Positions 6,183 to 36,428 of a stretch of 36,428 nucleotides of DNA are shown one piece after another. This DNA comes from Actinomycetota bacterium (GTDB lineage: Bacteria; Actinomycetota; Thermoleophilia; RBG-16-64-13). Numbering within the stretch: position 1 is the first letter of the stretch; every line of letters begins with the position of its first letter. The stretch lies in contig JAAYZX010000115.1 of assembly GCA_012514635.1 (NCBI GenBank), forward strand, positions 1-36,428. The letters are read 5' to 3'. The notes beneath the pieces were generated by a model. The model was not told the DNA's origin. It saw nothing but the letters and a program-made list of their open reading frames with translations, and searched no databases. The position numbers were made by a program, and so were the translations under genes.

Positions 6183-7419
6183 AGACGCGAGGGTGGCGGA
6201 TCGCAAGGAGAAGTTGGAGTGCGAGTCGTGTGTGGTGATCGGTGCCGGAGTTTCCGGCTGCGCCTGTGCTGCGGTGTTGGCCTCACGAGGAGTGGCGACG
6301 ACGTTGGTCAACTCTGCGCTCGATGTTACCGGCATGCCCGGCTACGGTCCGGTGCTTAGCCATGTGCGTCCGGAAGAAGCCCGTGCCGTTGTTGCCGCGC
6401 TGGATGCACTACCTATGGAGATGCGCTGCGCTTGGTTGAGCGGCTCGCTCTTGTGTCGCCCGGAGCTCACGGAGGTGGCGGGGCTGATTGTGGATCCGCG
6501 CGCGGTCTCGTTGCGTGTGAAGTGGGTGCTGGAGCAGTACCCGCAGCTGCAGTTGCGACAGGCGCTCGTGACTGCAGTGCAGGCGGATGGTGATGGCGGT
6601 TGGATTATTCGTTCGGCATTTGATGATGAGCTGAGGGCGTCGTACGTGGTGGTTGCAGTGGGCCTCAGTTTGGGTGGGCGTCTCACGGTGGGTATGCAAA
6701 CGCTCGAGGGTGGGCGGTACGGAGAGGTAGCCTCCGATGAGCTTCTCGAAGTGCTGCGGGGGCTGGGCGTCAAGTGCGAAGTGAGTAGTCTAAGTGTGGG
6801 ACACACAGAATGTGCCACGTTCACAGATTTGCCCAGCGGGTCTGTGGCCATGGAGCGACTTGACGATGCGCGGAGGAAGACGACGAAGCGAAGTAGTGCG
6901 GCAGTGTCTGCTGATCCATGGTTTGTTTGGCTTGAGGCTGTTGAGCGGTGGGGACGTGAATCAGCGGTGTGGGAAAGGGGAGTGTCGGGCGAAGAGCGGG
7001 GCCCGGCGCCACTGCTCAGCTATTCACTCGAAAGAAATGATTATGTCAGGCCGTCGTGGGCGCTGAGCGGTAGTACGCAGAATGAAGACTGTGGTGATGG
7101 AGCGAGGGACGCTGTTGTGCTCTATCCTGCAGGCCTAGCGACGGCGGAGTGGGCGACGGCGGAGCGGGCGACGGGAAACTCGGTGGACTGGGATATGCCT
7201 CAAGAGGCCCATCGGTCGCGACCGGGCTATGAAGTGCGTGCTTATGTGGTCAGGGATGTTGATGATGAGGGGCGGGTGTCGGGACTGGATGGAATCTGGG
7301 CTGTGGGGAGGGTGGCCGGTGCTTCGTCGTATGTAGAGAGCTTGGCGAGCGGGGTGAGGGCGGCCGCCGCCGTGGCGGCCGCCGCCGGCCCAACGACCTC
7401 CTGCCTGGAGAGCGAATGA
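6148..7419 (+). CDS. Degenerate MnmG-like FAD/NAD-binding paralogue
   Basis: This 423-residue Rossmann flavoprotein is of unknown function. A dinucleotide-binding fingerprint (VVIGAGVSGCACAAVL, residues 29-44) opens the protein. Comparison with the adjacent MnmG shows homology along most of its length: VVVAVGLSLGGRLTVG (167-182) matches VVLATGTFLEGKVVVG, then GGRYGEV matches AGRVGEL, RPGY (358-361) matches RPGY, and GIWAVGRVAGASSYVESLA (382-400) matches GLFAAGQINGTSGYEEAAA. The MnmG residue Cys47 (MPCNP) is replaced by Gly65 (MPGYG), and the RYCPS segment with the second catalytic Cys is absent. The C-terminal helical domain that binds tRNA and MnmE is also missing. The ATG at 6148 has GGAGG about 9 nt upstream but overlaps mnmE by 35 nt; GTG 6196 is an alternative. 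The end overlaps mnmG by 4 nt (ATGA). The small repeat TAEWATAERATG and an alanine run mark low-complexity parts. Confidence 0.85.
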   Translation: MKSSVDSASGSRDARVADRKEKLECESCVVIGAGVSGCACAAVLASRGVATTLVNSALDVTGMPGYGPVLSHVRPEEARAVVAALDALPMEMRCAWLSGSLLCRPELTEVAGLIVDPRAVSLRVKWVLEQYPQLQLRQALVTAVQADGDGGWIIRSAFDDELRASYVVVAVGLSLGGRLTVGMQTLEGGRYGEVASDELLEVLRGLGVKCEVSSLSVGHTECATFTDLPSGSVAMERLDDARRKTTKRSSAAVSADPWFVWLEAVERWGRESAVWERGVSGEERGPAPLLSYSLERNDYVRPSWALSGSTQNEDCGDGARDAVVLYPAGLATAEWATAERATGNSVDWDMPQEAHRSRPGYEVRAYVVRDVDDEGRVSGLDGIWAVGRVAGASSYVESLASGVRAAAAVAAAAGPTTSCLESE

Positions 7420-9338
7420 CGATGTTTGACCGATTCGACGTCGTTGTGGCGGGAGGAGGACACGCCGGGTGTGAGGCCGCGCTGTCCGCCGCCCGCATGG
7501 GTTGCAGCGTAGCGTTGGTGACTCTCAATATCGACAAGATCGTGCTGATGCCCTGCAATCCTGCAGTGGGAGGGGTCGGTAAAGGCCAGCTGACCAGGGA
7601 GATCGACGCGCTGGGCGGCGAGCAGGGAAGGAACACGGACAGAGCGTTTGTGCAGATCAAGATGCTCAACACGTCGAAGGGGCCTGCCGTACGAGCGCTG
7701 CGCGCACAGACCGATAAGCGTCTTTATGAGGACTGGATGAAGATTACGCTTGTGCACACTCCGGGCCTCTACGTGATCCAGGGGGAAGTCTGCGGCCTCG
7801 ATGTTTCACGTGAAACAATTGTAGGAGTGCGTTTGGCGGACGGCCGTTTCTTCGGCACACGGGCGGTTGTGCTGGCCACCGGGACTTTCCTGGAGGGGAA
7901 AGTAGTGGTGGGGGAGCATACGTATGCCGCCGGGCGTGTCGGGGAGCTACCAGCGGTCGGATTGTCGGCGTCGTTGCGCGAAATGGGTCTGGAGCTGGGA
8001 CGTTTTCAATCGGCCACACCGCCCCGCATAGACGGGCGCACCATCGATGCAACGAAAATGTCCGAACAACCGGGCGATCCAGACCCACTCGGCTTCTCGC
8101 ACTGGCAGAAGCCTCAGACGCGGAGGCAAATTCCCTGCTACTTAACGTATACCACTCCCCACACTCACGAGGTGGTGGCTGATCACCTTCACCTCAGCCC
8201 CATTCGCACGGGTTCCGTCAGCGGTAAAGGTCCTCGTTACTGCCCGTCCATAGATCGCAAGCTCATCAATTTCCCCGAGAAACGGCGGCACCCGGTATTT
8301 GTGGAACCGGAGGGTGCTACCACGTGTGAGATGTATCTCCAGGGCTTGACCACGAGCCTGCCCATCTTTGTACAGGAGATGATCATTCGTGCCGTTCCTG
8401 GCTTGGAGAACGCTCGGCTCATTCGTCCGGGCTATGCTGTGGAATACGACTTCCTTCTTCCACATCAGCTCACCCACAGCTTGGAGGCCAAGGCAGTGCA
8501 CGGTCTTTTCGCCGCCGGCCAGATCAACGGGACATCGGGCTATGAGGAGGCTGCGGCATTGGGGCTGATGGCCGGGATCAACGCGGCTTTGTACGTGAAC
8601 AATCAAGAGCCTTTCGTGCTCCGACGCGATCAAGCGTATATCGGGGTGTTGATCGATGATCTCGTGACCAAGGAGATAGACGAGCCTTACCGGATGTTCA
8701 CTTCGCGCGCCGAATACCGACTGCTTCTGCGTCACGACAATGCGGCGGAAAGACTCTCTCCGCTTGGACACACGCTGGGACTGATCGATGACGAACAGAT
8801 CGCCGAGATAGAGCAACGCGGCCGATTGCTGGCAGAAGGGGAGGCTCTTCTGGCGACGTCAACTGTTAAAGTGGGAGATGTTACCAACGACATCTTAAAG
8901 TCGCTTGGCAGCTCTCCCATCACTGAGTCGCAGTCGGCGGCGCGGATGCTGCGCAGACCGGAACTTTCTTTACAGGACATCGTGAGAATGCTGCCCGAAA
9001 TCCCGCGCGTGATTCTAGAGAATCTGCCGCCCGATATTGCTGATCAGCTCGCGGTTCGTGTCCAATATGACGGCTACATTCAGCGACAACTCGGAGATAT
9101 CCGCCGTCGCAGAGCCACCGAGGAAACTCATATACCAGAGGACTTCGACTACGCGGGCGTTGAAGGAATCACCGTTGAGGCTAGGCAGAAGTTGTGTCGT
9201 TTTAGACCCGCCACTCTGGGTCAGGCATCTCGAATTGCGGGCGTGTCTCCCGCAGATATCTCCTTGCTATTGATCCACGTGCACCGCCGCCGCGGTGGCA
9301 ACAGTGTGCGACAGGGGCGGGAGCCCGCAGTGCGTTGA
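7416..9338 (+). CDS. mnmG: tRNA uridine-5-carboxymethylaminomethyl(34) synthesis enzyme MnmG
   Basis: MnmG is the FAD- and NADH-dependent partner of MnmE. The 640-residue product is full length. It has the FAD fingerprint (VVVAGGGHAGCEAAL), Cys47 in MPCNPAVGG and Cys276 in RYCPSID, matching the two catalytic cysteines of E. coli MnmG. It also has the ATGTFLEG motif and GLFAAGQINGTSGYEEAAA at 363-381. The C-terminal helical domain ends near the stop. The start ATG overlaps the stop of the preceding MnmG-like gene, so the paralogue is translated just before the functional enzyme. A perfect parS site is embedded at 7802-7817. Confidence 0.98.
   Translation: MTMFDRFDVVVAGGGHAGCEAALSAARMGCSVALVTLNIDKIVLMPCNPAVGGVGKGQLTREIDALGGEQGRNTDRAFVQIKMLNTSKGPAVRALRAQTDKRLYEDWMKITLVHTPGLYVIQGEVCGLDVSRETIVGVRLADGRFFGTRAVVLATGTFLEGKVVVGEHTYAAGRVGELPAVGLSASLREMGLELGRFQSATPPRIDGRTIDATKMSEQPGDPDPLGFSHWQKPQTRRQIPCYLTYTTPHTHEVVADHLHLSPIRTGSVSGKGPRYCPSIDRKLINFPEKRRHPVFVEPEGATTCEMYLQGLTTSLPIFVQEMIIRAVPGLENARLIRPGYAVEYDFLLPHQLTHSLEAKAVHGLFAAGQINGTSGYEEAAALGLMAGINAALYVNNQEPFVLRRDQAYIGVLIDDLVTKEIDEPYRMFTSRAEYRLLLRHDNAAERLSPLGHTLGLIDDEQIAEIEQRGRLLAEGEALLATSTVKVGDVTNDILKSLGSSPITESQSAARMLRRPELSLQDIVRMLPEIPRVILENLPPDIADQLAVRVQYDGYIQRQLGDIRRRRATEETHIPEDFDYAGVEGITVEARQKLCRFRPATLGQASRIAGVSPADISLLLIHVHRRRGGNSVRQGREPAVR
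7802..7817. promoter_or_regulatory. parS: parS centromere site (ParB-binding)
   Basis: TGTTTCACGTGAAACA is a perfect 16-bp palindrome identical to the consensus chromosomal parS. It lies inside mnmG, encoding part of DVSRETI, about 6 kb from the DnaA boxes and 3 kb before parB. ParB loads here as a CTP-dependent clamp. I found no second copy in this window. Confidence 0.95.
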
Positions 9339-9348
9339 GTGGCGCAGG

Positions 9349-10086
9349 ATGGCGCGACTGACACAGGGCAAGGCGTATGCGGAAGCCGGGCTCAGCGAGG
9401 CTGCCCAGCAGCAACTGAGCCGGCTTGCCGACATCCTGCTTATGGCACCGGTCAACGTTACGGCGACACGGAGCACAGAGGACGTTGAACTTCGTCATTT
9501 TCTTGACTGCCTCGTACTTCTTGAGTTGCCCGCGGTTCGAGTGCCCGGCGCGCAGCTTGTCGATGTGGGAAGTGGCGGGGGTCTGCCGGCACTGGTGTTG
9601 GGCATTGCTCTGCCGCAGGCCAGGATTGTCGCTGTTGAGTCTATAGGCAAGAAGTGTGATTTCATTCGTGGGGCGGCAGCAGAACTGGAGTTGGACAATG
9701 TGGTCGTCGAGTGCGTACGGGCAGAGGAATTTGGACAGAGTGTGGGTCGCGAGCGTTTTGGAGTGGCGGTGTCACGGGCCGTGGGAGCGCTGGGCTTGGT
9801 GGCGGAGTTCTGCGCGCCGCTTGTGAAAGTCGATGGGTTCTTTGTTGCCATGAAAGGACGCCTGGACGTTTCGGAATGGAGCGAGGGTGTGATGGCGCTC
9901 GGTATACTGGGAGTGGAGCAGGTGGAGCAGATCCCGGTAGTCCCATTCGTTGGGGCAAGGAACCGATGCCTCGTGGTGGGGCGCAAAGTGCGCAGTACAC
10001 CCGCAGGGCTGCCCCGCCGACCGGGTATCGCTGCGAAGCGACCCCTCGGATCTGGAGCCGGCAAGTGGGGCGCAGCGCGGGAGTAG
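9349..10086 (+). CDS. rsmG: 16S rRNA (guanine(527)-N7)-methyltransferase RsmG
   Basis: RsmG methylates G527 of 16S rRNA using S-adenosylmethionine. The product (about 245 aa) has the family N-terminal feature NVTATRS...ELRHFLDCL, the SAM-binding loop LVDVGSGGGLPALVL, and VAVESIGKKCDFIRG in the next strand. The C-terminal 35 residues (after CLVVGRKV) are basic, low in complexity and longer than in most family members. ATG 9349 is preferred. An in-frame GTG at 9295 would overlap the mnmG end by 44 nt and adds only a non-conserved segment. The gene sits in the usual mnmG-rsmG-parA order. Confidence 0.95.
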   Translation: MARLTQGKAYAEAGLSEAAQQQLSRLADILLMAPVNVTATRSTEDVELRHFLDCLVLLELPAVRVPGAQLVDVGSGGGLPALVLGIALPQARIVAVESIGKKCDFIRGAAAELELDNVVVECVRAEEFGQSVGRERFGVAVSRAVGALGLVAEFCAPLVKVDGFFVAMKGRLDVSEWSEGVMALGILGVEQVEQIPVVPFVGARNRCLVVGRKVRSTPAGLPRRPGIAAKRPLGSGAGKWGAARE

Positions 10087-24971: not shown

Positions 24972-24983
24972 GGGTTGGCGCCC

Positions 24984-25829
24984 ATGAGAGAGATCCACAC
25001 GCAATCCATAGCTGATACCGTGAGCCGGCTGGTGCGCGAGGCCTGCACTTACCTCACAGACGACGTGCGTTGCGCTCTGGAGAGCGCTCTTGAGCGCGAG
25101 GCGTCGGAGCTGGGGCGCCGGGTGCTGCGCCAGTTGCTCCAAAACGCCTGCATTGCGGCGGAGGAGGGCGTTCCGCTCTGCCAAGACACGGGCTTGGCGG
25201 TTCTGTTTATCGAGCTGGGGCAAGATGCCCACATTGTTGGAGGGGACCTGAGCGCCGCACTCAACGAAGGGGTGCGTAGAGGCTACGTAGACGGTTTACT
25301 GCGGCGATCCTGTGTGGTTGAGCCCTGCCATAGTCGCACCAACACGGGTGACAACACGCCTGCCATCATCCATACGCGGATTGTGCCTGGTGATCAGCTG
25401 CGCATTGTGGCGCTCCCTAAGGGGGCGGGAGCTGAGAATAAGAGTGCCCTTGCCATGTTGGAGCCCTCTAAGGGGTGGGCAGGAGTGGTTGACTTCGTAG
25501 TGGAAGTGGTCTCCAAAGGTGGAGCCGGCGCATGCCCACCGTTGGTGGTGGGAGTGGGGCTGGGCGGAAACTTCGAACAGGTGGCCTTGTTGGCCAAAAC
25601 GGCCCTCCTTAGGCCTTTGGGAAGCCCCGCGAAGGACCCGCGTCTAGGCGGGCTGGAAGACCACATAGAACAGCGCTGCAATGCTTTGGGTATTGGCCCC
25701 ATGGGTCTCGGCGGAACCGTCACTGTGCTGGACGTCTTTGTGGAGGAAGCCCCGTGCCATATTGCTTCGCTTCCAGTAGCGGTCAATCTGCAGTGCCACG
25801 CGCAACGACACCGCGAGGCCCGGTTGTGA
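24984..25829 (+). CDS. Class I fumarate hydratase, alpha subunit
   Basis: This is the N-terminal subunit of the two-subunit, [4Fe-4S], oxygen-sensitive fumarase, which interconverts fumarate and malate. The 281-residue product contains three candidate cluster cysteines in conserved surroundings: PLCQDTGLA, EPCHSRTNTGDN and GGAGACPPL. VVGVGLGGNFEQ and the final ALGIGPMGLGGTVT also fit the family. The related L(+)-tartrate dehydratase alpha cannot be fully excluded. ATG 24984 is preferred over TTG 24975. The stop overlaps the beta-subunit start by 4 nt (GTGA). Confidence 0.9.
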   Translation: MREIHTQSIADTVSRLVREACTYLTDDVRCALESALEREASELGRRVLRQLLQNACIAAEEGVPLCQDTGLAVLFIELGQDAHIVGGDLSAALNEGVRRGYVDGLLRRSCVVEPCHSRTNTGDNTPAIIHTRIVPGDQLRIVALPKGAGAENKSALAMLEPSKGWAGVVDFVVEVVSKGGAGACPPLVVGVGLGGNFEQVALLAKTALLRPLGSPAKDPRLGGLEDHIEQRCNALGIGPMGLGGTVTVLDVFVEEAPCHIASLPVAVNLQCHAQRHREARL

Positions 25830-26458: not shown

Positions 26459-27142
26459 CTAGAGGCTGTCGCGCGCGAGCGGGACGAGCTTGTTTTCTTC
26501 GAGAAACACTGAGCGCATGGTCAGGTGTTCAATCTCCCGCCACTCATCGTAGAGGGCTGTCATGGTAGGACAGTCATACCTACGTAGAGGATAGTCCAAA
26601 GTGAGGGCGCGGATCTCCGCCACCAAGCGCGCGATCTTGAAATGATCGGCCTCCATTCTTTCAACCATTCGTTCCAGCTGACGAGAGTCCACCCTTTGTC
26701 CTCTGAGGAGCGGCGTGAGGTCGTTTTCTCCTCCCGTCCAATGTTGCTGTAGCTCGCGATCGAGTTGCTCGAAGAGTCGTCCGATATCGTAAAGCTCCGG
26801 ACTCTCAGAGCCGCATTCCAGCATGACGAATGAGAGTCGTTTCGCCATGGACGGCAGCAGCCGGCGTAGTTGGGCGTGGTAGACATCGCGGATCACAGTT
26901 GCAATCTCCACAGGGGTTGCAGCCACCCACTCTTCAGGAAAGGAGCGGTGATCGTGGAAGAGACTGTATGTGCCCTGCAATGATGTCAGGAGCGGTTCTA
27001 GTTCGGCCCCTGCCGCTGCGGCTGCAGCTTCAAGCGTAACTTCCGGCTGGTCCGCGTCGATGCCGTGACGCTCAAGAATCTCCCGTCCGGAGACCAAGGC
27101 CCACAGCACGTCGGCGATCCGGGTTTGAGGCGTGAATTGCAC
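26459..27142 (-). CDS. RIC/ScdA-like hemerythrin-domain protein lacking the N-terminal CC motif
   Basis: The 227-residue protein has the two-part layout of RIC (YtfE/ScdA) di-iron proteins that repair Fe-S clusters. The N-terminal DUF542-like segment (TRIADVLWALVSGREILERHGID, up to residue 29) is followed where RIC has CCGG by ADQP, so both cysteines are gone. The C-terminal hemerythrin-like bundle keeps metal-ligand candidates VYHAQL, QHWTGGE, ADHFKI and IEHLTMRSVFLEEN. GTG 27142 has AAGGGGA upstream. It is convergent with the fumarase genes, whose product carries a fragile Fe-S cluster; a protective role is inference. Confidence 0.75.
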   Translation of the reverse strand: MQFTPQTRIADVLWALVSGREILERHGIDADQPEVTLEAAAAAAGAELEPLLTSLQGTYSLFHDHRSFPEEWVAATPVEIATVIRDVYHAQLRRLLPSMAKRLSFVMLECGSESPELYDIGRLFEQLDRELQQHWTGGENDLTPLLRGQRVDSRQLERMVERMEADHFKIARLVAEIRALTLDYPLRRYDCPTMTALYDEWREIEHLTMRSVFLEENKLVPLARDSL

Positions 27143-27628: not shown

Positions 27629-28825
27629 ATGGCAAACCCGTTCCGCAACATCACGTTTCTCTCCATGGAGCAGGCCACTGTTCTTCCCTATCTCAGCTGG
27701 CGGTTTGCTCATGAAGGGGCCCGCGTCATCAGGTTCGAGCATCCCAAGTACGCGGACCCAAACCGGCGAATCGGCCAGCCGTATCGTGAGGGTGAAACCT
27801 CCATGTGCAGCTACTTCATGGCGTTCAACTCCGGCAAGGAGGCCATGACGCTGGACCTGGCGCAACCCAAGGCCAAAGAAATTCTCAAAGACGTCATCCA
27901 GAAACTCAACGTCGACATTTTCGCCGTAAACACACTGCCTAAAACTATAGGTAAGCTCAGTATCGACTATGAGGACATCAAGGCCATCAAGCCTGACATC
28001 ATTTGGGTCAGCCTCAACGGCTTTGGGCCGGATTCCAACGAAGCGGCCTATGATCCGGTACTCCAGGCTCGAGGCGGCCTCATGGATTTGACGGGCGAAG
28101 ACGGTGGAGAGCCGCAGGTGTGCGGTATTTACATTCCAGACCTGGGTACCAGCAACCACGCTTACGGCGAGATCATGAAGGCGCTCTACAAGCGGGCCAT
28201 CACAGGTGAGGGTAGCCGTATCGACGTGGCTATGATCCAGTCGACTGCCTCCTGGCTTCTGCAGCCTATTACTATGTATAAGACTTTCGATACCGTCATG
28301 CACCGTCGTGGGAACACGCACGAGTTCTTCTCGCCGGTCAGCGTGTTCCCAACTTCTGATGGCTGGGCGTACGTCGCTGTCGGTAACGATCTGCAGTGGG
28401 GTCGCCTCATCACGCTCCCCGGCTTCGAAGGCCTCGCCAACCCGGAGTGGGAAGCGAACAAGGGCCGCGTCAAGGATATGGACGAAGTTATTTCCCAGAT
28501 GGCTGAATGCACCAAGAAATACACTACGGCCGATCTTCTGAAGTTGTTCAACGAGAACACTATCGCCGCCGCCAAGGTTAATGACGTGACGGACGTCGTT
28601 GAGGACCCGTTTATCAAGCCACACCTGGTGAAGTCGGTGGAAGAGGAGACAGGCTTCGAGATCACCATGGCGCCGGCTCCCGTCACTTCTGAATGGCTGA
28701 AGGAAAACGACATGAAGATGTCCTTCCCACCGCGCCTAGGACAGGACAACGAGAAGATCATCGTCGGGGAACTCGGATGGACTCAAGAGCAGTATGAAGC
28801 TGCCAAGGCCGAGGGCGCAATCTAG
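27629..28825 (+). CDS. Type III (CaiB/BaiF-family) CoA-transferase
   Basis: Enzymes of this family move CoA between carboxylic acids through acyl-enzyme anhydride and thioester intermediates on an Asp. The 398-residue product has the family elements FNSGKEAMTLDL, VSLNGFGPDSNEAAYDPVLQ and RGGLMDLTGE. The catalytic Asp171 is in IYIPDLGTS, at the position of Asp169 in formyl-CoA transferase. The C-terminal domain closes normally. ATG 27629 is chosen because GGAAGAGG lies about 9 nt upstream; the frame is open from 27572. As the first gene of an operon with a dehydrogenase and mutase, it probably activates the pathway's carboxylic acid. The substrate is unknown. Confidence 0.88.
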   Translation: MANPFRNITFLSMEQATVLPYLSWRFAHEGARVIRFEHPKYADPNRRIGQPYREGETSMCSYFMAFNSGKEAMTLDLAQPKAKEILKDVIQKLNVDIFAVNTLPKTIGKLSIDYEDIKAIKPDIIWVSLNGFGPDSNEAAYDPVLQARGGLMDLTGEDGGEPQVCGIYIPDLGTSNHAYGEIMKALYKRAITGEGSRIDVAMIQSTASWLLQPITMYKTFDTVMHRRGNTHEFFSPVSVFPTSDGWAYVAVGNDLQWGRLITLPGFEGLANPEWEANKGRVKDMDEVISQMAECTKKYTTADLLKLFNENTIAAAKVNDVTDVVEDPFIKPHLVKSVEEETGFEITMAPAPVTSEWLKENDMKMSFPPRLGQDNEKIIVGELGWTQEQYEAAKAEGAI

Positions 28826-28872: not shown

Positions 28873-30054
28873 GTGGACTTCAAGCTCACGGAGGAACAAG
28901 AGTTCTTCCGCCAAACTATCGCTGACACCGTCGACCGCATGGTCATGCCCAAAGTCGAGCACATCGACGAACACCCGGACGACTTTCCCTGGGATCTCTG
29001 GAAGGAGTTCACCAGCCTCGGCTACCTGGGTCTGCGCTACCCCGAAGAAGTGGGCGGCATGGAGGCCGATACCACCACCTGCATGCTCTTCTATCAGGAA
29101 CTAGCACGCGCCTCGGCGGGATTCTCCATGGCTGTGACCATGAACATGCTGATGGGGACGTACTTCCTGCATCGCTTCGGCAGTGAAGACATCGTCAATC
29201 GCCTCATGGTCCCCGCCATCCGCGGAGAGAAGATCGGAGTCATTTGCTTCACCGAAGACCAGTCCGGTTCGGATGTGGGCGCTACCCGCACCACTGCCAC
29301 CAAAGTTGACGACGGTTGGGTCATCAATGGAGTCAAGACCTGGATCACCAATGGTCCCATCTGCGACTTCTGCACCGTTATCTGTCAGACTGATCCCAGC
29401 AAAGGTTCCAGGGGCCTCGACTTCTTCCTAATAGAGCGGGGCATGGAGGGCTTCTCCAGCGGCCAGATTCTGCACAAGATGGGTGCTCAGGGCCCCATCA
29501 CCGGTGAGCTCATCTTTGATAACGTGCTCGTCCCCGAGGACCACTTCCTAGGCGACGAAGTGGGTCGTGGCGTTCAGCACCTGACGGATATTCTCAACGA
29601 AGTGCGCTGCATGACGGCGGCTTCGGCCATCGGTATTGCAACCACCGCTATGAACGACGCCTTGGAGTATGCGCGGGCCCGCAAGGCTTTCGGTCGCACC
29701 ATTGGTGACTACCAGCTCATCCGAGAGAAGTTCGCCCGTATTGCCATGAACATGGAAGCTTCCAAACTGATGGTTTACCGTACCGCCTGGATGATCGACG
29801 AAGAGAAGGCCGGTAGGGGTCCCAATCCACGTGAGGAGGCGTTTCTTACCAAGATGTTCGCCACGGAAATGTGCATGGAGTGTGTGGACGAAGTCATGCG
29901 GATCTACGGGGGGAACGCTTTTGCCCGCGAGTACGGTCCGCAGCGTTACTTCCGTGATGCGCGCTTCCTGCTCTACGGCGGCGGCACGCACGAGATCATC
30001 AAAGACTTCATCGGCGGCCAGATGATCAGGGGTAGGTGGCAGTCACGAATGTAG
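28873..30054 (+). CDS. Acyl-CoA dehydrogenase, atypical catalytic site
   Basis: This FAD-dependent acyl-CoA dehydrogenase (393 aa, normal length) should pass electrons to the neighbouring ETF. Conserved parts are FTEDQSGSDVGATRTTA (126-142), WVINGVKTWITN (149-160) and RKAFGRTIGDYQ (270-281). The usual catalytic Glu in YEGT is replaced: the segment reads YGGGTHEI (368-375), with Gly370 at the Glu position. The alternative Glu used by isovaleryl-CoA dehydrogenase types sits before an Arg (ER); here LNEVR (241-245) has Val244, with Glu243 shifted by one. So either Glu243 serves as base or the chemistry differs. GTG 28873 is preceded by AGGAGGGG. Confidence 0.9.
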   Translation: MDFKLTEEQEFFRQTIADTVDRMVMPKVEHIDEHPDDFPWDLWKEFTSLGYLGLRYPEEVGGMEADTTTCMLFYQELARASAGFSMAVTMNMLMGTYFLHRFGSEDIVNRLMVPAIRGEKIGVICFTEDQSGSDVGATRTTATKVDDGWVINGVKTWITNGPICDFCTVICQTDPSKGSRGLDFFLIERGMEGFSSGQILHKMGAQGPITGELIFDNVLVPEDHFLGDEVGRGVQHLTDILNEVRCMTAASAIGIATTAMNDALEYARARKAFGRTIGDYQLIREKFARIAMNMEASKLMVYRTAWMIDEEKAGRGPNPREEAFLTKMFATEMCMECVDEVMRIYGGNAFAREYGPQRYFRDARFLLYGGGTHEIIKDFIGGQMIRGRWQSRM

Positions 30055-30136: not shown

Positions 30137-30901
30137 GTGAAGGTAGCCGTTCTAACGAAAGAGGTGCCGGACCTGGAGGCGCAGGTGAGGGTAGCCGCCG
30201 GGGGAGCGTCTCTCGATATTGAAAAGCAAAGAGTGCTCAACTTCTTTGATGAGATCGCAGTGGAAGCGGCACTCCAATTGAAGGAAAGTGCCGAGGCGGA
30301 AGCTTATGCTGTGACGGCCGGTGCCGGTACCGGCATTGACGCTTTGCGACGTGCTCTGGCCATGGGGATTCCAGGAGCGTTCCATGTTGACGATCCTGAG
30401 CTGGCGGATGCCAATCCCTTGACTGTGGCGCGGGCCCTGGCCGCTTTCTTGGAAAAGGAAGGCTTCGATCTCATCATCGCCGGCAAGCAGGCCACCGATG
30501 ACGAGGCGGGCCTCATTGGTCCTATGGTGGCAGAGATACTCGGGATCCCCTGCGTGGTCGGTATTACCGGCCTCGAAGCCTCGGGCTCGTCGGTTACGGT
30601 TACACGTCTGACGGACGCCGGGACAGAAAAATACGAGGTTCCGTTGCCGGCCTTGGTTACTGCTGAAAAAGGCCTCTTCGAGCCGCGCGTACCGGCGGTC
30701 ACGGGAGTGATGAAGGCTATGAGGGCCAAGATCGACAAGTACTCTTTGGCCGATCTCGGTGTCGAAGCTGCGCCTCCATTCAAGGTTTTGGGATATCAAC
30801 CCCCGGCCAAGCGCGCAGCGGTCAAGATGATCACGGGCGAACCCGCGGAAGTGGCTGCTGAACTGGTGCAGCTACTTCGCGATGAAGCCAAGGCGCTGTG
30901 A
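30137..30901 (+). CDS. etfB: Electron transfer flavoprotein beta subunit
   Basis: EtfB pairs with EtfA to accept electrons from acyl-CoA dehydrogenases. The 254-residue product has the family N-terminus VAVLTKEVPD, NFFDEIAVEAALQLKE, and the conserved GKQATDDEAGLIGPMVAEIL loop with the AMP-site region. GTG 30137 has GGAGG upstream. etfA starts 10 nt after the stop. Its place between the dehydrogenase and mutase genes makes it dedicated to this pathway (inference). Confidence 0.95.
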   Translation: MKVAVLTKEVPDLEAQVRVAAGGASLDIEKQRVLNFFDEIAVEAALQLKESAEAEAYAVTAGAGTGIDALRRALAMGIPGAFHVDDPELADANPLTVARALAAFLEKEGFDLIIAGKQATDDEAGLIGPMVAEILGIPCVVGITGLEASGSSVTVTRLTDAGTEKYEVPLPALVTAEKGLFEPRVPAVTGVMKAMRAKIDKYSLADLGVEAAPPFKVLGYQPPAKRAAVKMITGEPAEVAAELVQLLRDEAKAL

Positions 30902-30911
30902 GGAGGATGGT

Positions 30912-31868
30912 ATGTCGATTCTCGTGATAGCTGAGGCGGCGGGCGCCGGTTTCCGGCCCTCTACCTTCGAACTCCTCTCGCATGCGCGGGCGCTTGGTGA
31001 ACCGGCCTCGGTGATTTTAGTAGGCGACGACGCGGCCAACAAGGAGCAGTTGGATGGGCTGGCCGCAAAAGTGGTGACAGTGGCTGGGGCAAACCTTTCC
31101 CCGTACAGCGCCGACTCGTGGGTAGACGTGCTGGCGCAGGCAATCCAAGCCGAAGGCGCAGACGTGGTGCTGTTCAGTGAAGGCCAACGTACACGCGATC
31201 TCCTTCCGCGGATTGCTGCTCGGCTCGGCCTAAGCGCTGTTACGGCGGGCATGGGATTGACCAAGGACGGAGGCTCGTATGTCGTTCATCGTCCGGCCCA
31301 GGGCGGCAAGGCGTACATGGATCTGGTCGTGGAGGGTGGCTCAGCACTGATTGCGTTCCGACCCAACTCCTTCGCTACCGACGCCGCCCCTGTCGACGGT
31401 ACGGCTTATGAGGAGAAGACGATTGATGCCGCCGCTAATCGGACACCTGTAGTGGAACAGGTGGCTGAGGAGGGCAAAAAGATCGATGTCACTGAAGCAG
31501 CGGTCGTTATCTGTGGTGGCCGCGGGATGAAGTCTGAAGAGAACTTGGCCCTCCTAGAAGAACTGGCGGATATTCTGGGCGGTGCTTGGGGTGTTACTCG
31601 GGCGCTCGTGGACGCGGGTTGGAAGGGTGCGGATCACTCTATCCAGGTGGGCAAGTCCGGCAAGACGGTCTCGCCGGGCCTGTACTTCGCGTGCGGGATC
31701 TCCGGCGCTACCCACCACATCATGGGGATGGACACATCCAAAGTGGTGGTCGCGATCAACACAGACCCCGACGCGCTCATGTTCGAGTACGCCGACTACG
31801 GCATAACGGGGGATGCGCTGCAGGTGATCCCGGAGATCGTCAAGGAGGTGAGGGCTGTCAAGGGCTGA
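30912..31868 (+). CDS. etfA: Electron transfer flavoprotein alpha subunit
   Basis: EtfA (318 aa) carries the redox FAD. The C-terminal FAD domain shows VVICGGRGMKSEENLALLEE, TRALVDAGW, VGKSGKTVSPGLYFACGISGA and VAINTDPDALMFEYADYGITGD. The flavin contact usually written GQTGKTV is GKSGKTV here, and the AIQH Gln is His (ATHH), both of which may tune flavin potential. No ferredoxin domain is present. ATG 30912 has AGGAGG 5 nt upstream; the frame opens at 30882, inside etfB. Confidence 0.95.
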   Translation: MSILVIAEAAGAGFRPSTFELLSHARALGEPASVILVGDDAANKEQLDGLAAKVVTVAGANLSPYSADSWVDVLAQAIQAEGADVVLFSEGQRTRDLLPRIAARLGLSAVTAGMGLTKDGGSYVVHRPAQGGKAYMDLVVEGGSALIAFRPNSFATDAAPVDGTAYEEKTIDAAANRTPVVEQVAEEGKKIDVTEAAVVICGGRGMKSEENLALLEELADILGGAWGVTRALVDAGWKGADHSIQVGKSGKTVSPGLYFACGISGATHHIMGMDTSKVVVAINTDPDALMFEYADYGITGDALQVIPEIVKEVRAVKG

Positions 31869-31926
31869 GTGCCGGAGGCAGACACAACTGTAAGGATGTA
31901 AATGCCGCACATTGGGAGAGCGTGCT

Positions 31927-32322
31927 GTGGGAGATAAGCGAATCAAGGTGGTGGTGGCCAAGCCCGGCTTGGATGGTCACGACCGCGGCGCCAAGGTGGT
32001 AGCCCTGGCGCTCAAGGAAGCCGGGATGGAAGTAATCTATACCGGGCTTCACCAGAGCGTTGACAGTATTGTGAACACGGCCATCCAGGAAGATGCCGAC
32101 GTGCTGGGCCTCTCGGTTATGACCGGCGGCCACGTACATATCTGCAAAGAAGTGGTAGAAAAGCTGAGCGCCGAGGGCGCCTCCGATATCAAGGTAGCCG
32201 TGGGTGGCGTCATACCCTCGCGGGACATTCCTACACTCAAAGATCTGGGCGTGGCAGGCGTCTTCCCCGGTGGCACCCCCATTGACGAAGCAGTCGCCTG
32301 GATCCAGGCGACTGTGAACTAG
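31927..32322 (+). CDS. Acyl-CoA mutase, B12-binding small subunit
   Basis: This 131-residue cobalamin-binding subunit is of the methylmalonyl-CoA mutase C-terminal type. The base-off/His-on signature is KPGLDGHDRGAKVVA, with His18 as lower ligand. SVMTGGH and VGGVIPSRD complete the nucleotide-tail pocket. GTG 31927 is preferred because GGGAGAG lies 7 nt upstream; an in-frame TTG at 31912 is less likely. It lies 11 nt before the large-subunit gene, so the mutase is the split, two-gene type seen in isobutyryl- and 2-hydroxyisobutyryl-CoA mutases and many archaeal mutases. Confidence 0.95.
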   Translation: MGDKRIKVVVAKPGLDGHDRGAKVVALALKEAGMEVIYTGLHQSVDSIVNTAIQEDADVLGLSVMTGGHVHICKEVVEKLSAEGASDIKVAVGGVIPSRDIPTLKDLGVAGVFPGGTPIDEAVAWIQATVN

Positions 32323-32333
32323 GGGGTGTAGAT

Positions 32334-33965
32334 ATGTCTGACGTTGCACGGTATGTCCAAAATGAGAAGGGCGAGGTAACTAGCGTTACCTACCCCTCCG
32401 GTATCGAAGTGAAGGCCGTCTATGGCCCTGAGGATCTAGAGCGCATCGGCTTCGATTACGAGCAGGACCTGGGTGCACCCGGGACCTATCCTTTCACCCG
32501 CAACAATTTCCCTCTTGGCTATCGCAGCCGAGAGTGGACCACTCGCCAGTACGCAGGTTTCGGGACGCCCAAAGAGACCAATGAGCGCTGGCACATGCTG
32601 CTCTCGGCCGGTCAAACCGGTCTTAATGTAGCGTTTGACCTGCCTACTCAGATGGGACTCGACTCCGATGATCCGCGGGCTGCGGGCGAGGTGGGTCGGG
32701 TGGGCATGGCTATAGATTCTCTGCGCGATTTTGAGATCGCGTTTGAGGGTATCGACATGCATCGTGTGGGCACGGGTCTCACCATTAACGCCGTGGCCTC
32801 CATCATGATGGCCATGTACGAAGCTGTGGCCGAGAAGTACGGTTTCGATACCGGCAAGATCTCCTGCACGCCTCAGAACGACATCATCAAAGAAGTGCTT
32901 GGTCGCGGCGCCTGGATCTACGATCTGGATTCCGCCGTTAGGCTTATTGGTGACACTATTGAGTACGCTATTACCGCCCAGCCGAGGACCTACCCAACCA
33001 GCATCTGCGGCTACCATATTCGTGAGAGCGGCGCCAATTCCGCACAGGAGATGGCTTACGCGTTCTTGATCGCAAACACTTACATCGATGAGGTCGTCAA
33101 GCGCGGTTACGACGCCAAGGACTTCGCCGGTCGTATCAGCTACAACCTGAATATCTACGGCAACCTGTGGGAACAAGTTGCCAAATTCCGGGCCGGCCGC
33201 AAGGTTTGGGCGCGCAATCTGAAAGAACGCTACGGGGTGGAGAAGCGCTCAGATCTCATGCTGAAAGGGTTGTTTGCCGGTGGCGGTAGCGGCCTCATGA
33301 AGGCCGAGCCTGAGAATAACATCATGCGCGGTGCCTTCTACGGCCTGGCGGCGGCCCTCTCCGGCGCTCAGTCAACGGCACTGTGCTCGTTCGATGAGGC
33401 CTACTCCATTCCTAGCCCACGTGCTGCGCTGCTGTCCCTGCGTACGCTACAGATCATCATGGACGAAGTTGGTCTGCGCGACACCGTCGACCCGTTGGCG
33501 GGATCGTATTTCATCGAGACTATTACCAAAGAGATGGAAGAGAAAATCCTCGGCGAGATGAAGGAGATCGAGGATCGCGGCGGCATGCTGGAAAACGTCA
33601 AGAACGGGTATGTGGGTCGCAAGCTGTCTCGTCAAGCTTATGAGTGGGAGATAGGCATCGAGCGCGGCGAGCTGATCAAGGTGGGAGTCAACAAGTACGC
33701 CACTGCTCGCGAGGAAGAAGTAGAGCTGCACGAATACAACGAGAGCTGGCAGGATACCCAGATTGCCAACCTTAAGGAAGTGCGCCGCACACGTGACGAT
33801 AAGCAGGTTGCCGAGCGACTGAAGGCATTGACTGATGTGGCACGCAGTGGCAAGAATGTTATGTCGGCTCTTAAGGATGCCTGCCTCGCCTACTGCACGG
33901 TGGGCGAAATGAGCGATGTATTCCTGGAAGTCTTTGGTCCCTACAAAGAGCCGAACGTAGTGTGA
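32334..33965 (+). CDS. Acyl-CoA mutase, substrate-binding large subunit (divergent)
   Basis: This is the 543-residue TIM-barrel subunit of a B12-dependent acyl-CoA mutase. Residues matching Propionibacterium methylmalonyl-CoA mutase are Tyr73 (RQYAGF, Tyr89), Thr179 and Gln181 (CTPQND, Thr195/Gln197), Arg191 (Arg207), Tyr227-His228 (GYHIRESG, Tyr243/His244) and Gln346 (Gln361). The normally conserved HSQTSG is replaced by LFAGGG (Leu313, Ala315 in place of His328 and Gln330), and SLHTNS by STALCS (347-352). Tyr73 and Arg191 suggest a dicarboxylic acyl-CoA rather than isobutyryl- or 2-hydroxyisobutyryl-CoA, but the other changes argue for an unusual substrate. GGGGGTG lies before the ATG. Confidence 0.93.
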   Translation: MSDVARYVQNEKGEVTSVTYPSGIEVKAVYGPEDLERIGFDYEQDLGAPGTYPFTRNNFPLGYRSREWTTRQYAGFGTPKETNERWHMLLSAGQTGLNVAFDLPTQMGLDSDDPRAAGEVGRVGMAIDSLRDFEIAFEGIDMHRVGTGLTINAVASIMMAMYEAVAEKYGFDTGKISCTPQNDIIKEVLGRGAWIYDLDSAVRLIGDTIEYAITAQPRTYPTSICGYHIRESGANSAQEMAYAFLIANTYIDEVVKRGYDAKDFAGRISYNLNIYGNLWEQVAKFRAGRKVWARNLKERYGVEKRSDLMLKGLFAGGGSGLMKAEPENNIMRGAFYGLAAALSGAQSTALCSFDEAYSIPSPRAALLSLRTLQIIMDEVGLRDTVDPLAGSYFIETITKEMEEKILGEMKEIEDRGGMLENVKNGYVGRKLSRQAYEWEIGIERGELIKVGVNKYATAREEEVELHEYNESWQDTQIANLKEVRRTRDDKQVAERLKALTDVARSGKNVMSALKDACLAYCTVGEMSDVFLEVFGPYKEPNVV

Positions 33966-34051: not shown

Positions 34052-36181
34052 ATGGCGTACAAGATCGGAGTTGACGTTGGTGGTACCTTCACGGACTTCC
34101 TTTTAGCGGAAGACGACGGCACCGCCTACATATATAAGGTCTTATCCACCCCCAAGGATCCTTCCATTGCCACCATCCGCGGCATCGAGGAGATGGCCAA
34201 GGATCGCAACATGGGCACGGACGAGTTTCTGAGCCAGGTTACAACCATTGTGCACGGGACCACTGTGACCACTAACGCCACGCTCACTTATCGTGGCGCT
34301 AAGACCGGACTTCTCACCACAGAAGGGGTTCGCGACGCTCTGGAGATGCGCCGTGGCATCAGAGAAGAACAGTACAACAACCGCTATGAGAACGCCCGTC
34401 CTGTAGTCGAGCGCTATCTGCGTCGGCCGGTGAAGGAACGTCTCAATTACAAAGGCGACGTGATCGCTCCGCTGGATGAAGCTTGGCTGCGCAAGGAAAT
34501 GGAGTTTCTGAAGAGTGAAGGCTGTGAAGCCGTCGCCATTTGCTTCATGAACTCCTTTGCCAATGCCGATCACGAGAACAAAACGGCCGAGATCGTCCGC
34601 GAGTATTTGCCTGAGGCATTCCTCTCCATCTCCAGCGAGATTCTTCCCGCTATTCGTTTCTACGACCGCGTCTCCACCACTGCCCTAAACGCCTATATCG
34701 GCCCGGTACTCGATCTTTATCTGGGCCCCAAGCTGGGACTACTGAACAAGCTGTCCAAATACAACTTCCAGGGCGTCCTGCTTATCATGGCGTCCAATGG
34801 CGGAGTCATATCGCCGGAAGTGGCTATGCACATCCCGGGTCTCACTCTCCTTTCCGGCCCGGCAGGCGGTCCGGTGGCGGGCCTGGCGTATGCCGAAGGC
34901 CAGGGCTTCCCCGATGTTATTACCTGTGACATGGGTGGCACCTCTTTCGACGTTGCCCTGATCAAAGACAAGAAACCACTCACTACCACTGAGGGTGAGA
35001 TCGAGCGGCTGCGTATCAGCTGGCCCATGCTGGATGTGGTTACCATTGGGGCCGGCGGCGGCTCTATCGGTTGGATCGATGAAGTGGGTCTGCTGAGGAT
35101 GGGACCGCAGAGCGCAGGCGCCGACCCGGGACCTGCCTGCTACGATTTGGGCGGTGAAGAGCCCGCCTGCTCCGACGCCGACTTGGTGCTCGGCTATCTG
35201 GATCCTAACTTCTTCGCCGGCGGCAAGATGAAGCTGTCTGTGGACAAGGCACGCAAGGCCATCGAAGAGAAGGTTGGCAAGAAGCTCGGCATGACTGCGG
35301 AAGAGGCAGCCGCAGGCATGTACGAAGTCATCAACGTAAGCATGGCATCCGCCGTCCGCGAGATCGCGGTAAAGGCGGGATACGATCCGCGTGATTTCCC
35401 ACTGGTTACGGCCGGTGGTGCCGGTCCCAATCATGCCTGCCAGATCGCACTGGCCCTCTCCATACCTGAGATTCTGGTACCGCGGGAATCCTCCATTTTC
35501 TGCGCCGCGGGCATGCTGCGCACCGATCTCAAACACGACTTCGTTCGCACTTACCCCACTGTTCTGGGCTCGCTGGATGTAGAGCGCTTCCGCAAGCTGT
35601 ACGCGGAGATGAAAACAGAGGGCGACTCCATGCTTGAGGAAGAAGGCATTCCTGAAGATCGCATCTCATACGTGCTGCAACTAGATCTGCGCTATGTGCG
35701 TCAGTTCCATGAAGTCTCAGTGCAACTCTCCTGGGACGAAGCCAATAGTGGCGACCTTTCGGCTGTAGCCAAACGCTTCCATGCGGCTCACGATGCTCTT
35801 TACGGCTACTCGTTGGAAGATAGGAACACTCCGGTGGAACTGATCAATATGCGTCTCACTGCTATTGGCACCACCGAGAAACCAGACCTGCCAGCCCAGC
35901 CGTACACCGGTCCGGATCCATCTGCCGCCTATAAGCATGACCGCTCTGCATATGTTCCTTCCGTGAAGGCGTACCAGGAAGTCCCGGTCTACGACGGTTT
36001 CGCGCTTACGTACGGCATGCGTCTGGCCAGCCCCTGCATCATTGAGCAGGTCAACACCACCACGTTTGTCACGCCCGAGTTTGACGCGATCGTCGATCGG
36101 CTGGGCACATACACCATCTATCTCAAAGAAAACGAAGCCGATGTGCTGGCGCGAGTCCTCAAGGACGTGGAGGCCGCCTGA
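34052..36181 (+). CDS. HyuA-type hydantoinase / ATP-dependent ketone carboxylase subunit
   Basis: This 709-residue ASKHA-fold subunit belongs to the hydantoinase A / 5-oxoprolinase / acetone and acetophenone carboxylase superfamily. Phosphate loop 1 is DVGGTFTD (8-15). HGTTVTTNA follows, and phosphate loop 2 is DMGGTSFD (293-300). GADPGPACYDLGG and DADLVLGYLDPNFFAGG are typical of the family, and the C-terminal domain is complete. ATP use is thus expected; hydrolytic versus carboxylating activity cannot be told by sequence alone. The end overlaps the hyuB ATG (TGATG). Confidence 0.92.
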   Translation: MAYKIGVDVGGTFTDFLLAEDDGTAYIYKVLSTPKDPSIATIRGIEEMAKDRNMGTDEFLSQVTTIVHGTTVTTNATLTYRGAKTGLLTTEGVRDALEMRRGIREEQYNNRYENARPVVERYLRRPVKERLNYKGDVIAPLDEAWLRKEMEFLKSEGCEAVAICFMNSFANADHENKTAEIVREYLPEAFLSISSEILPAIRFYDRVSTTALNAYIGPVLDLYLGPKLGLLNKLSKYNFQGVLLIMASNGGVISPEVAMHIPGLTLLSGPAGGPVAGLAYAEGQGFPDVITCDMGGTSFDVALIKDKKPLTTTEGEIERLRISWPMLDVVTIGAGGGSIGWIDEVGLLRMGPQSAGADPGPACYDLGGEEPACSDADLVLGYLDPNFFAGGKMKLSVDKARKAIEEKVGKKLGMTAEEAAAGMYEVINVSMASAVREIAVKAGYDPRDFPLVTAGGAGPNHACQIALALSIPEILVPRESSIFCAAGMLRTDLKHDFVRTYPTVLGSLDVERFRKLYAEMKTEGDSMLEEEGIPEDRISYVLQLDLRYVRQFHEVSVQLSWDEANSGDLSAVAKRFHAAHDALYGYSLEDRNTPVELINMRLTAIGTTEKPDLPAQPYTGPDPSAAYKHDRSAYVPSVKAYQEVPVYDGFALTYGMRLASPCIIEQVNTTTFVTPEFDAIVDRLGTYTIYLKENEADVLARVLKDVEAA

Positions 36182-36428
36182 TGAAGCAATATGAAGTGGA
36201 CAAATCCATCCCCATCGACCGCATCCTGGTCTCCATTCTCCAGAAGCGGCTCAAGAGCATCACCGAAGAGATGAGTATCGCCATGGTACGGACCACGCGG
36301 TCCCCCATCCTTTGCGAGGCGCGCGACTTCGTGACCGGTCTCTACGACTACAAGGGCGATATGCTGGAGCAGAAGGAGAACCTGCCCATCCTTGCCTTCT
36401 CGCTGCAGCCGGTGTGCAAATACATCAT
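36181..36428 (+). CDS. HyuB-type hydantoinase / ketone carboxylase subunit (cut by window edge)
   Basis: The first 82 codons match the N-terminus of hydantoinase B / acetone carboxylase alpha-type proteins: ITEEMSIAMVRTTRSPILCE, then DFVTGLYDYKGDML. Full family members have about 510-780 residues, so most of it lies past the edge. It overlaps hyuA and should form the catalytic partner of the HyuA ATPase. QKENLPILAFSL departs from the usual IPVHLGSM stretch of hydantoinases, consistent with a divergent substrate. Confidence 0.9.
   Translation, partial: MKQYEVDKSIPIDRILVSILQKRLKSITEEMSIAMVRTTRSPILCEARDFVTGLYDYKGDMLEQKENLPILAFSLQPVCKYI

Follow-up and report, generated by a model that had tools for sequence, protein, structure and literature searches.

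Anaerobic bacterial metabolism of indoleacetate, a plant hormone, offers the closest described system: IaaF (ebA2055), the benzylmalonyl-CoA dehydrogenase of Aromatoleum aromaticum, whose gene belongs to the iaa operon of this pathway (Schühle et al. 2021, PMC8360864). As described there, all IaaF orthologues carry GGG instead of YEG, and the 2-carboxyl group is proposed to leave as CO2, substituting for proton abstraction at C2; the reaction was demonstrated for the Aromatoleum enzyme, and the mechanism is the authors' proposal. The same account reports that this enzyme had no activity on phenylpropionyl-CoA, weak activity on butyl- to hexylmalonyl-CoA and no reaction with ETF, and that several strict anaerobes have an ETF paralogue within the iaa operon. 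Other acyl-CoA dehydrogenases (ACADs) are more distant analogues. Isovaleryl-CoA and long-chain ACADs have the fold in common; their YEGT Glu position holds Gly or Ala and their catalytic Glu lies on helix G before a conserved Arg, whereas short- and medium-chain ACADs and glutaryl-CoA dehydrogenase carry it in YEG(T). Glutaryl-CoA dehydrogenase also couples oxidation to loss of CO2, but it keeps YEG, begins by taking the C2 proton and expels the gamma-carboxyl.

We analysed a 36,428-nucleotide stretch of an Actinomycetota contig (the window), which encodes an ACAD with neither glutamate. The gene (28873-30054, + strand) has a GTG start codon preceded by AGGAGGGG, and its 393-residue product contains three Pfam acyl-CoA dehydrogenase domains and a GGG motif replacing YEG. 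We conclude that it is very probably an iaaF orthologue, most likely specifying a decarboxylating, FAD-dependent dehydrogenase that acts on (2-aminobenzyl)malonyl-CoA, or on a closely related arylmalonyl-CoA, during anaerobic breakdown of indoleacetate or tryptophan. Thus, the usual catalytic glutamate appears to be absent because the enzyme most likely belongs to the IaaF family, expelling CO2 rather than removing a proton.

A previous sequence-only reading had placed Gly370 at the Glu position of YEGT and Val244 at that of the isovaleryl type, with Glu243 off by one residue, and alignment to solved structures bears out all three assignments. The segment ILNEVRCM lies gaplessly opposite GLDYERVV of the isovaleryl-CoA dehydrogenase structure 4o5m, which sets Val244 against the catalytic Glu and Glu243 against a Tyr (Glu243-Val244 codons, 29599-29604, +); a misalignment concealing a canonical Glu is ruled out by this helix alignment. 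Near the C terminus, LYGGGTHEI falls opposite YEIGAGTSEI of 4o5m and aligns with the YEGT motif in both 4l1f and 5lnx; the Glu position is thus occupied by Gly370 (Gly369-Gly370-Gly371 codons, 29977-29985, +). An AlphaFold model built with 40 aligned sequences (mean pLDDT 92.3) has ACADs as its nearest solved structures, isovaleryl- and glutaryl-CoA dehydrogenase among them.

Comparison with close homologues, suggested by the earlier reading as a check, identifies the absent Glu as a fixed trait of a clade of 60 distinct sequences. Gly-Gly-Gly occupies positions 369-371 in all 59 readable rows of the 60 members, position 244 is Val or Ile in every member, and Glu243 is kept in 59, with a single Gln, although position 242 varies. 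None of 18 ordinary ACADs has Val or Ile at 244, and most carry E370 or a Glu at 244. With this pattern across 60 distinct relatives, the missing Glu is not a product of chance or sequencing error. The FAD-site residues T127, E128, G132, D134, W157 and T159 are also invariant across the clade, which agrees with the earlier judgement, based on intact FAD motifs, that the gene is not dead.

Orthologues of this ACAD occur in several phyla. Six genomes of the same family, the window's own among them, carry it at 64-100% identity, and scanning of contigs from GTDB genomes recovered 30 orthologues at 52-85% identity from Actinomycetota, Deferrisomatales, Syntrophorhabdus and other Deltaproteobacteria-type MAGs, and Bacillota MAGs. 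Additional searches found orthologues in Desulfobacterota-type genomes and Pseudomonadota. In the plasmid collection, the window's ACAD had no match at 1e-80, and a Pseudomonadota IaaF query matched one Massilia plasmid ACAD at 44%. A further ACAD of GGG type, sharing 46-48% identity with that of the window, immediately precedes the IaaF orthologue in two genomes, of which one is a Syntrophaceae MAG (L044, 2217-3476; L079, 328 onward, equivalent to L098, 7089-8246, where it is itself preceded by a MeaB-type GTPase). Such tandem genes possibly represent a two-gene enzyme or serve a second substrate.

In a maximum-likelihood tree of 75 ACADs, the window's gene and seven Pseudomonadota IaaF-type genes form one clade (support 100/99), separate from 17 ordinary ACADs; the reference rows are ACADs of iaa operons, not the A. 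aromaticum protein itself, and two rows with GGGA or GGGC that the motif filter had tagged 'other' lie inside the clade. All or nearly all of the seven Pseudomonadota operons have HyuA, HyuB, the ACAD and a B12 mutase, and they mostly add Mo-hydroxylase subunits, CaiB, a thiolase or CoA ligase, and an SDR. Their IaaF termini (MDFDLTD... and ...IAKEVSS) match the A. aromaticum iaaF cloning primers given in the published account, and comparison with the A. aromaticum enzyme was made through these termini and the motif. A search with the published primer sequence in three groups gave no useful match, the one exact match lying at a contig end.

The surrounding genes strengthen the resemblance to iaa operons. 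On the same strand (+), the window encodes a family III (CaiB-type) CoA-transferase, a putative iaaL-like phenylsuccinyl-CoA transferase (27629-28825; 37-38% identity to CaiB of gammaproteobacterial iaa operons); the ACAD; an ETF beta subunit (30137-30901), presumed to be part of a dedicated electron acceptor and kept beside the ACAD in strict-anaerobe loci; an ETF alpha subunit (30912-31868; the ORF start may be 30882); the B12-binding small subunit (31912-32322) and the large subunit (32334-33965) of an iaaG/H-like acyl-CoA mutase, a candidate phenylsuccinyl/benzylmalonyl-CoA mutase; a HyuA-type subunit of an ATP-dependent lactam hydrolase (34052-36181; iaaC/E-like, with a predicted role in oxindole ring opening); and the start of a HyuB-type subunit (36181-36428), which overlaps the HyuA stop (TGATG) and runs to the contig end. 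This HyuB fragment of ~82 codons is 74% identical to HyuB of locus L027 over 94 aligned positions, and the nearest relative has the same operon order at 80-89% identity. Thus, CaiB, ACAD, B12 subunit, mutase, HyuA and HyuB form a core common to the window and iaa operons. Relative to the Pseudomonadota IaaF group, identity is only 39-41% for the ACAD and 37-38% for CaiB, so substrates could differ. The window's operon also differs from that described for A. aromaticum in having ETF genes and in lacking an adjoining Mo-hydroxylase or CoA ligase; within the window, no thiolase adjoins it either. In its ETF genes it resembles the iaa operons of the strict anaerobes Desulfatiglans anilini and Ferroglobus placidus, which belong to other phyla and have IaaF orthologues with an operon-borne ETF paralogue, as described in PMC8360864.

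In most loci ETF genes lie directly downstream of the ACAD, and in Deferrisomatales and others FixC and FixX follow the ETF and Mo-hydroxylase genes lie beyond CaiB. In Syntrophorhabdus-type genomes (L030-L040; for example L030, 3687-14274), yqeY-mutS2-dnaG-rpoD is followed immediately by an ACAD-EtfBA-FixC(-FixX) block that has no adjoining mutase or HyuAB. EtfB identity to the window (30137-31868 compared with L029-L040) is 60-67% in the majority of operons that include mutase and HyuAB and ~37-44% in most other Deltaproteobacteria-type loci, yet the ACAD there exceeds 60%. These sequence comparisons suggest that the ETF partner may have been exchanged between lineages. Upstream of the window's operon are a fumarate hydratase alpha-type gene (24975-25829) and a RIC/YtfE-like hemerythrin-domain iron-sulfur repair protein that scores below the NCBIfam cut-off (26459-27142).

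The neighbouring mutase is informative about the substrate. Its RQYAGF and KEVLGR motifs align with RQYAGF and KEFMVR of human MCM, whereas 2-hydroxyisobutyryl-CoA mutase has RQIAGF and KEYMAQ at the same sites (Ile and Gln in place of Tyr and Arg). We take this Tyr and Arg to be the carboxylate site of methylmalonyl-CoA mutases. Their retention is consistent with a substrate of the dicarboxylyl-CoA type, for example phenylsuccinyl/benzylmalonyl-CoA, and led us to reject acetone or 2-hydroxyisobutyryl chemistry. Acetophenone-type carboxylation was likewise rejected, HyuA scoring 668.5 bits against caprolactamase alpha and 370 against ApcC, neither over the cut-off.

We infer the following route. 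HyuAB, with ATP, would open an oxindole-type lactam ring; CaiB (IaaL) would transfer CoA, yielding phenylsuccinyl-CoA; and the B12 mutase would convert this to a benzylmalonyl-CoA. On the window's ACAD, the 2-carboxyl would depart as CO2 while FAD accepts a hydride from C3, so that a cinnamoyl-CoA results, and the three glycines may give space for the 2-carboxyl. With no C2 proton taken, a catalytic Glu would not be needed. The ETF encoded next door would reoxidize FADH2, an electron route that we infer for this enzyme, as the A. aromaticum enzyme is reported to be unreactive with ETF. The IaaF-type clade, the operon and the mutase Tyr and Arg indicate that the earlier suggestion, in which the neighbouring mutase supplies a carboxylated acyl-CoA, was essentially right; the different base proposed with it finds no support, since CO2 would leave instead of a proton.

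Other parts of the pathway are partly visible in the genome and its relatives. In two relatives (L122, equivalent to G002, 7006-9503; and G012), the operon is immediately preceded by genes for indolepyruvate ferredoxin oxidoreductase, an enzyme that could connect tryptophan to indoleacetyl-CoA by way of indolepyruvate. The window's genome itself has an IorA over the curated cut-off, close to a Mo-hydroxylase resembling 4-hydroxybenzoyl-CoA reductase on contig C41. The C41 cluster (L121, G000:C41, 4947-15370) comprises an adenine-deaminase-like protein, this Mo-hydroxylase, UbiX and the indolepyruvate ferredoxin oxidoreductase, the last consisting of IorA and a POR-domain subunit. No gene of this genome (G000) could be assigned with confidence as a dedicated indoleacetyl-CoA hydroxylase; outside the window, only generic 4-hydroxybenzoyl-CoA-reductase-like genes were found, with ~36-41% identity to their iaa-linked counterpart in L023.

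The same family and chemistry could instead serve another aryl- or alkylmalonyl-CoA, derived from a different lactam or arylsuccinate rather than from indoleacetate. The ~40% identity to the Pseudomonadota IaaF group, the Syntrophorhabdus-type orthologues, which occur with ETF and FixCX away from HyuAB and often downstream of dnaG-rpoD, and the weak alkylmalonyl-CoA activity reported for A. aromaticum IaaF (PMC8360864) all lend this some credence. However, HyuAB, CaiB and the mutase are all kept with the ACAD in the window and its near relatives, and IorAB adjoins the operon in two relatives, so we consider another natural substrate unlikely. Departures from the redox chemistry are far less probable still. 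A 3-sulfinopropionyl-CoA desulfinase, a non-redox enzyme of ACAD fold, likewise has no Glu, is described as carrying AGG in place of YEG (PMC8360864) and is among the NCBIfam matches of the window's ACAD, but the score is 195.6 bits against a cut-off of 600, ETF genes lie directly downstream in most loci and the tree places the ACAD in the IaaF-type clade, making this highly improbable. That both known base positions are empty might even suggest a degenerate, non-catalytic ACAD, a reading with next to no probability given that FAD-site residues and GGG are invariant in ~60 distinct orthologues spanning several phyla, a pattern indicative of purifying selection.

Glu243 poses a subtler question, as its near invariance beside a variable position 242 suggests that it probably matters. 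The sequence-only reading had offered it as a substitute base, displaced but able to take the C2 or another proton. Yet it occupies the helix position just preceding the one that faces C-alpha, and pairs with Tyr, not Glu, of isovaleryl-CoA dehydrogenase, so by alignment and helix geometry its side chain should point ~100 degrees from C-alpha. Pseudomonadota IaaF genes bear the same Glu (for example L069), and the reported inactivity of Aromatoleum IaaF on phenylpropionyl-CoA, whose oxidation would be expected of a working C2 base, argues against any displaced base, Glu243 included (PMC8360864). We therefore regard a catalytic base at Glu243 as very unlikely. Somewhat less improbable, though still doubtful, is that Glu243 has a real clade-specific catalytic duty (for instance in directing decarboxylation, in binding the 2-amino group, or as a base towards a substrate not so far described), which together with the own-ETF lineage would define a functionally separate ETF-linked arylmalonyl-CoA dehydrogenase. 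We favour membership in the IaaF family as set out above.

Under IaaF membership, the absence of the catalytic Glu most likely already has a published explanation in the IaaF work (PMC8360864). To the points taken from that work, our data add the near-invariant Glu243 as a clade signature and the actinobacterial lineage, and the remaining novelty is modest: an uncultured anaerobic actinobacterial IaaF member with a presumably dedicated ETF. GGG is a sharp sequence-level marker of an unusual mechanism, in which CO2 rather than a proton is lost, published in 2021 for one enzyme. Because an ETF adjoins the gene, the identity of the natural electron acceptor can be tested directly. That anaerobic members of the Actinomycetota and lineages of Desulfobacterota type share this signature and operon widens the likely range of anaerobic indoleacetate breakdown.
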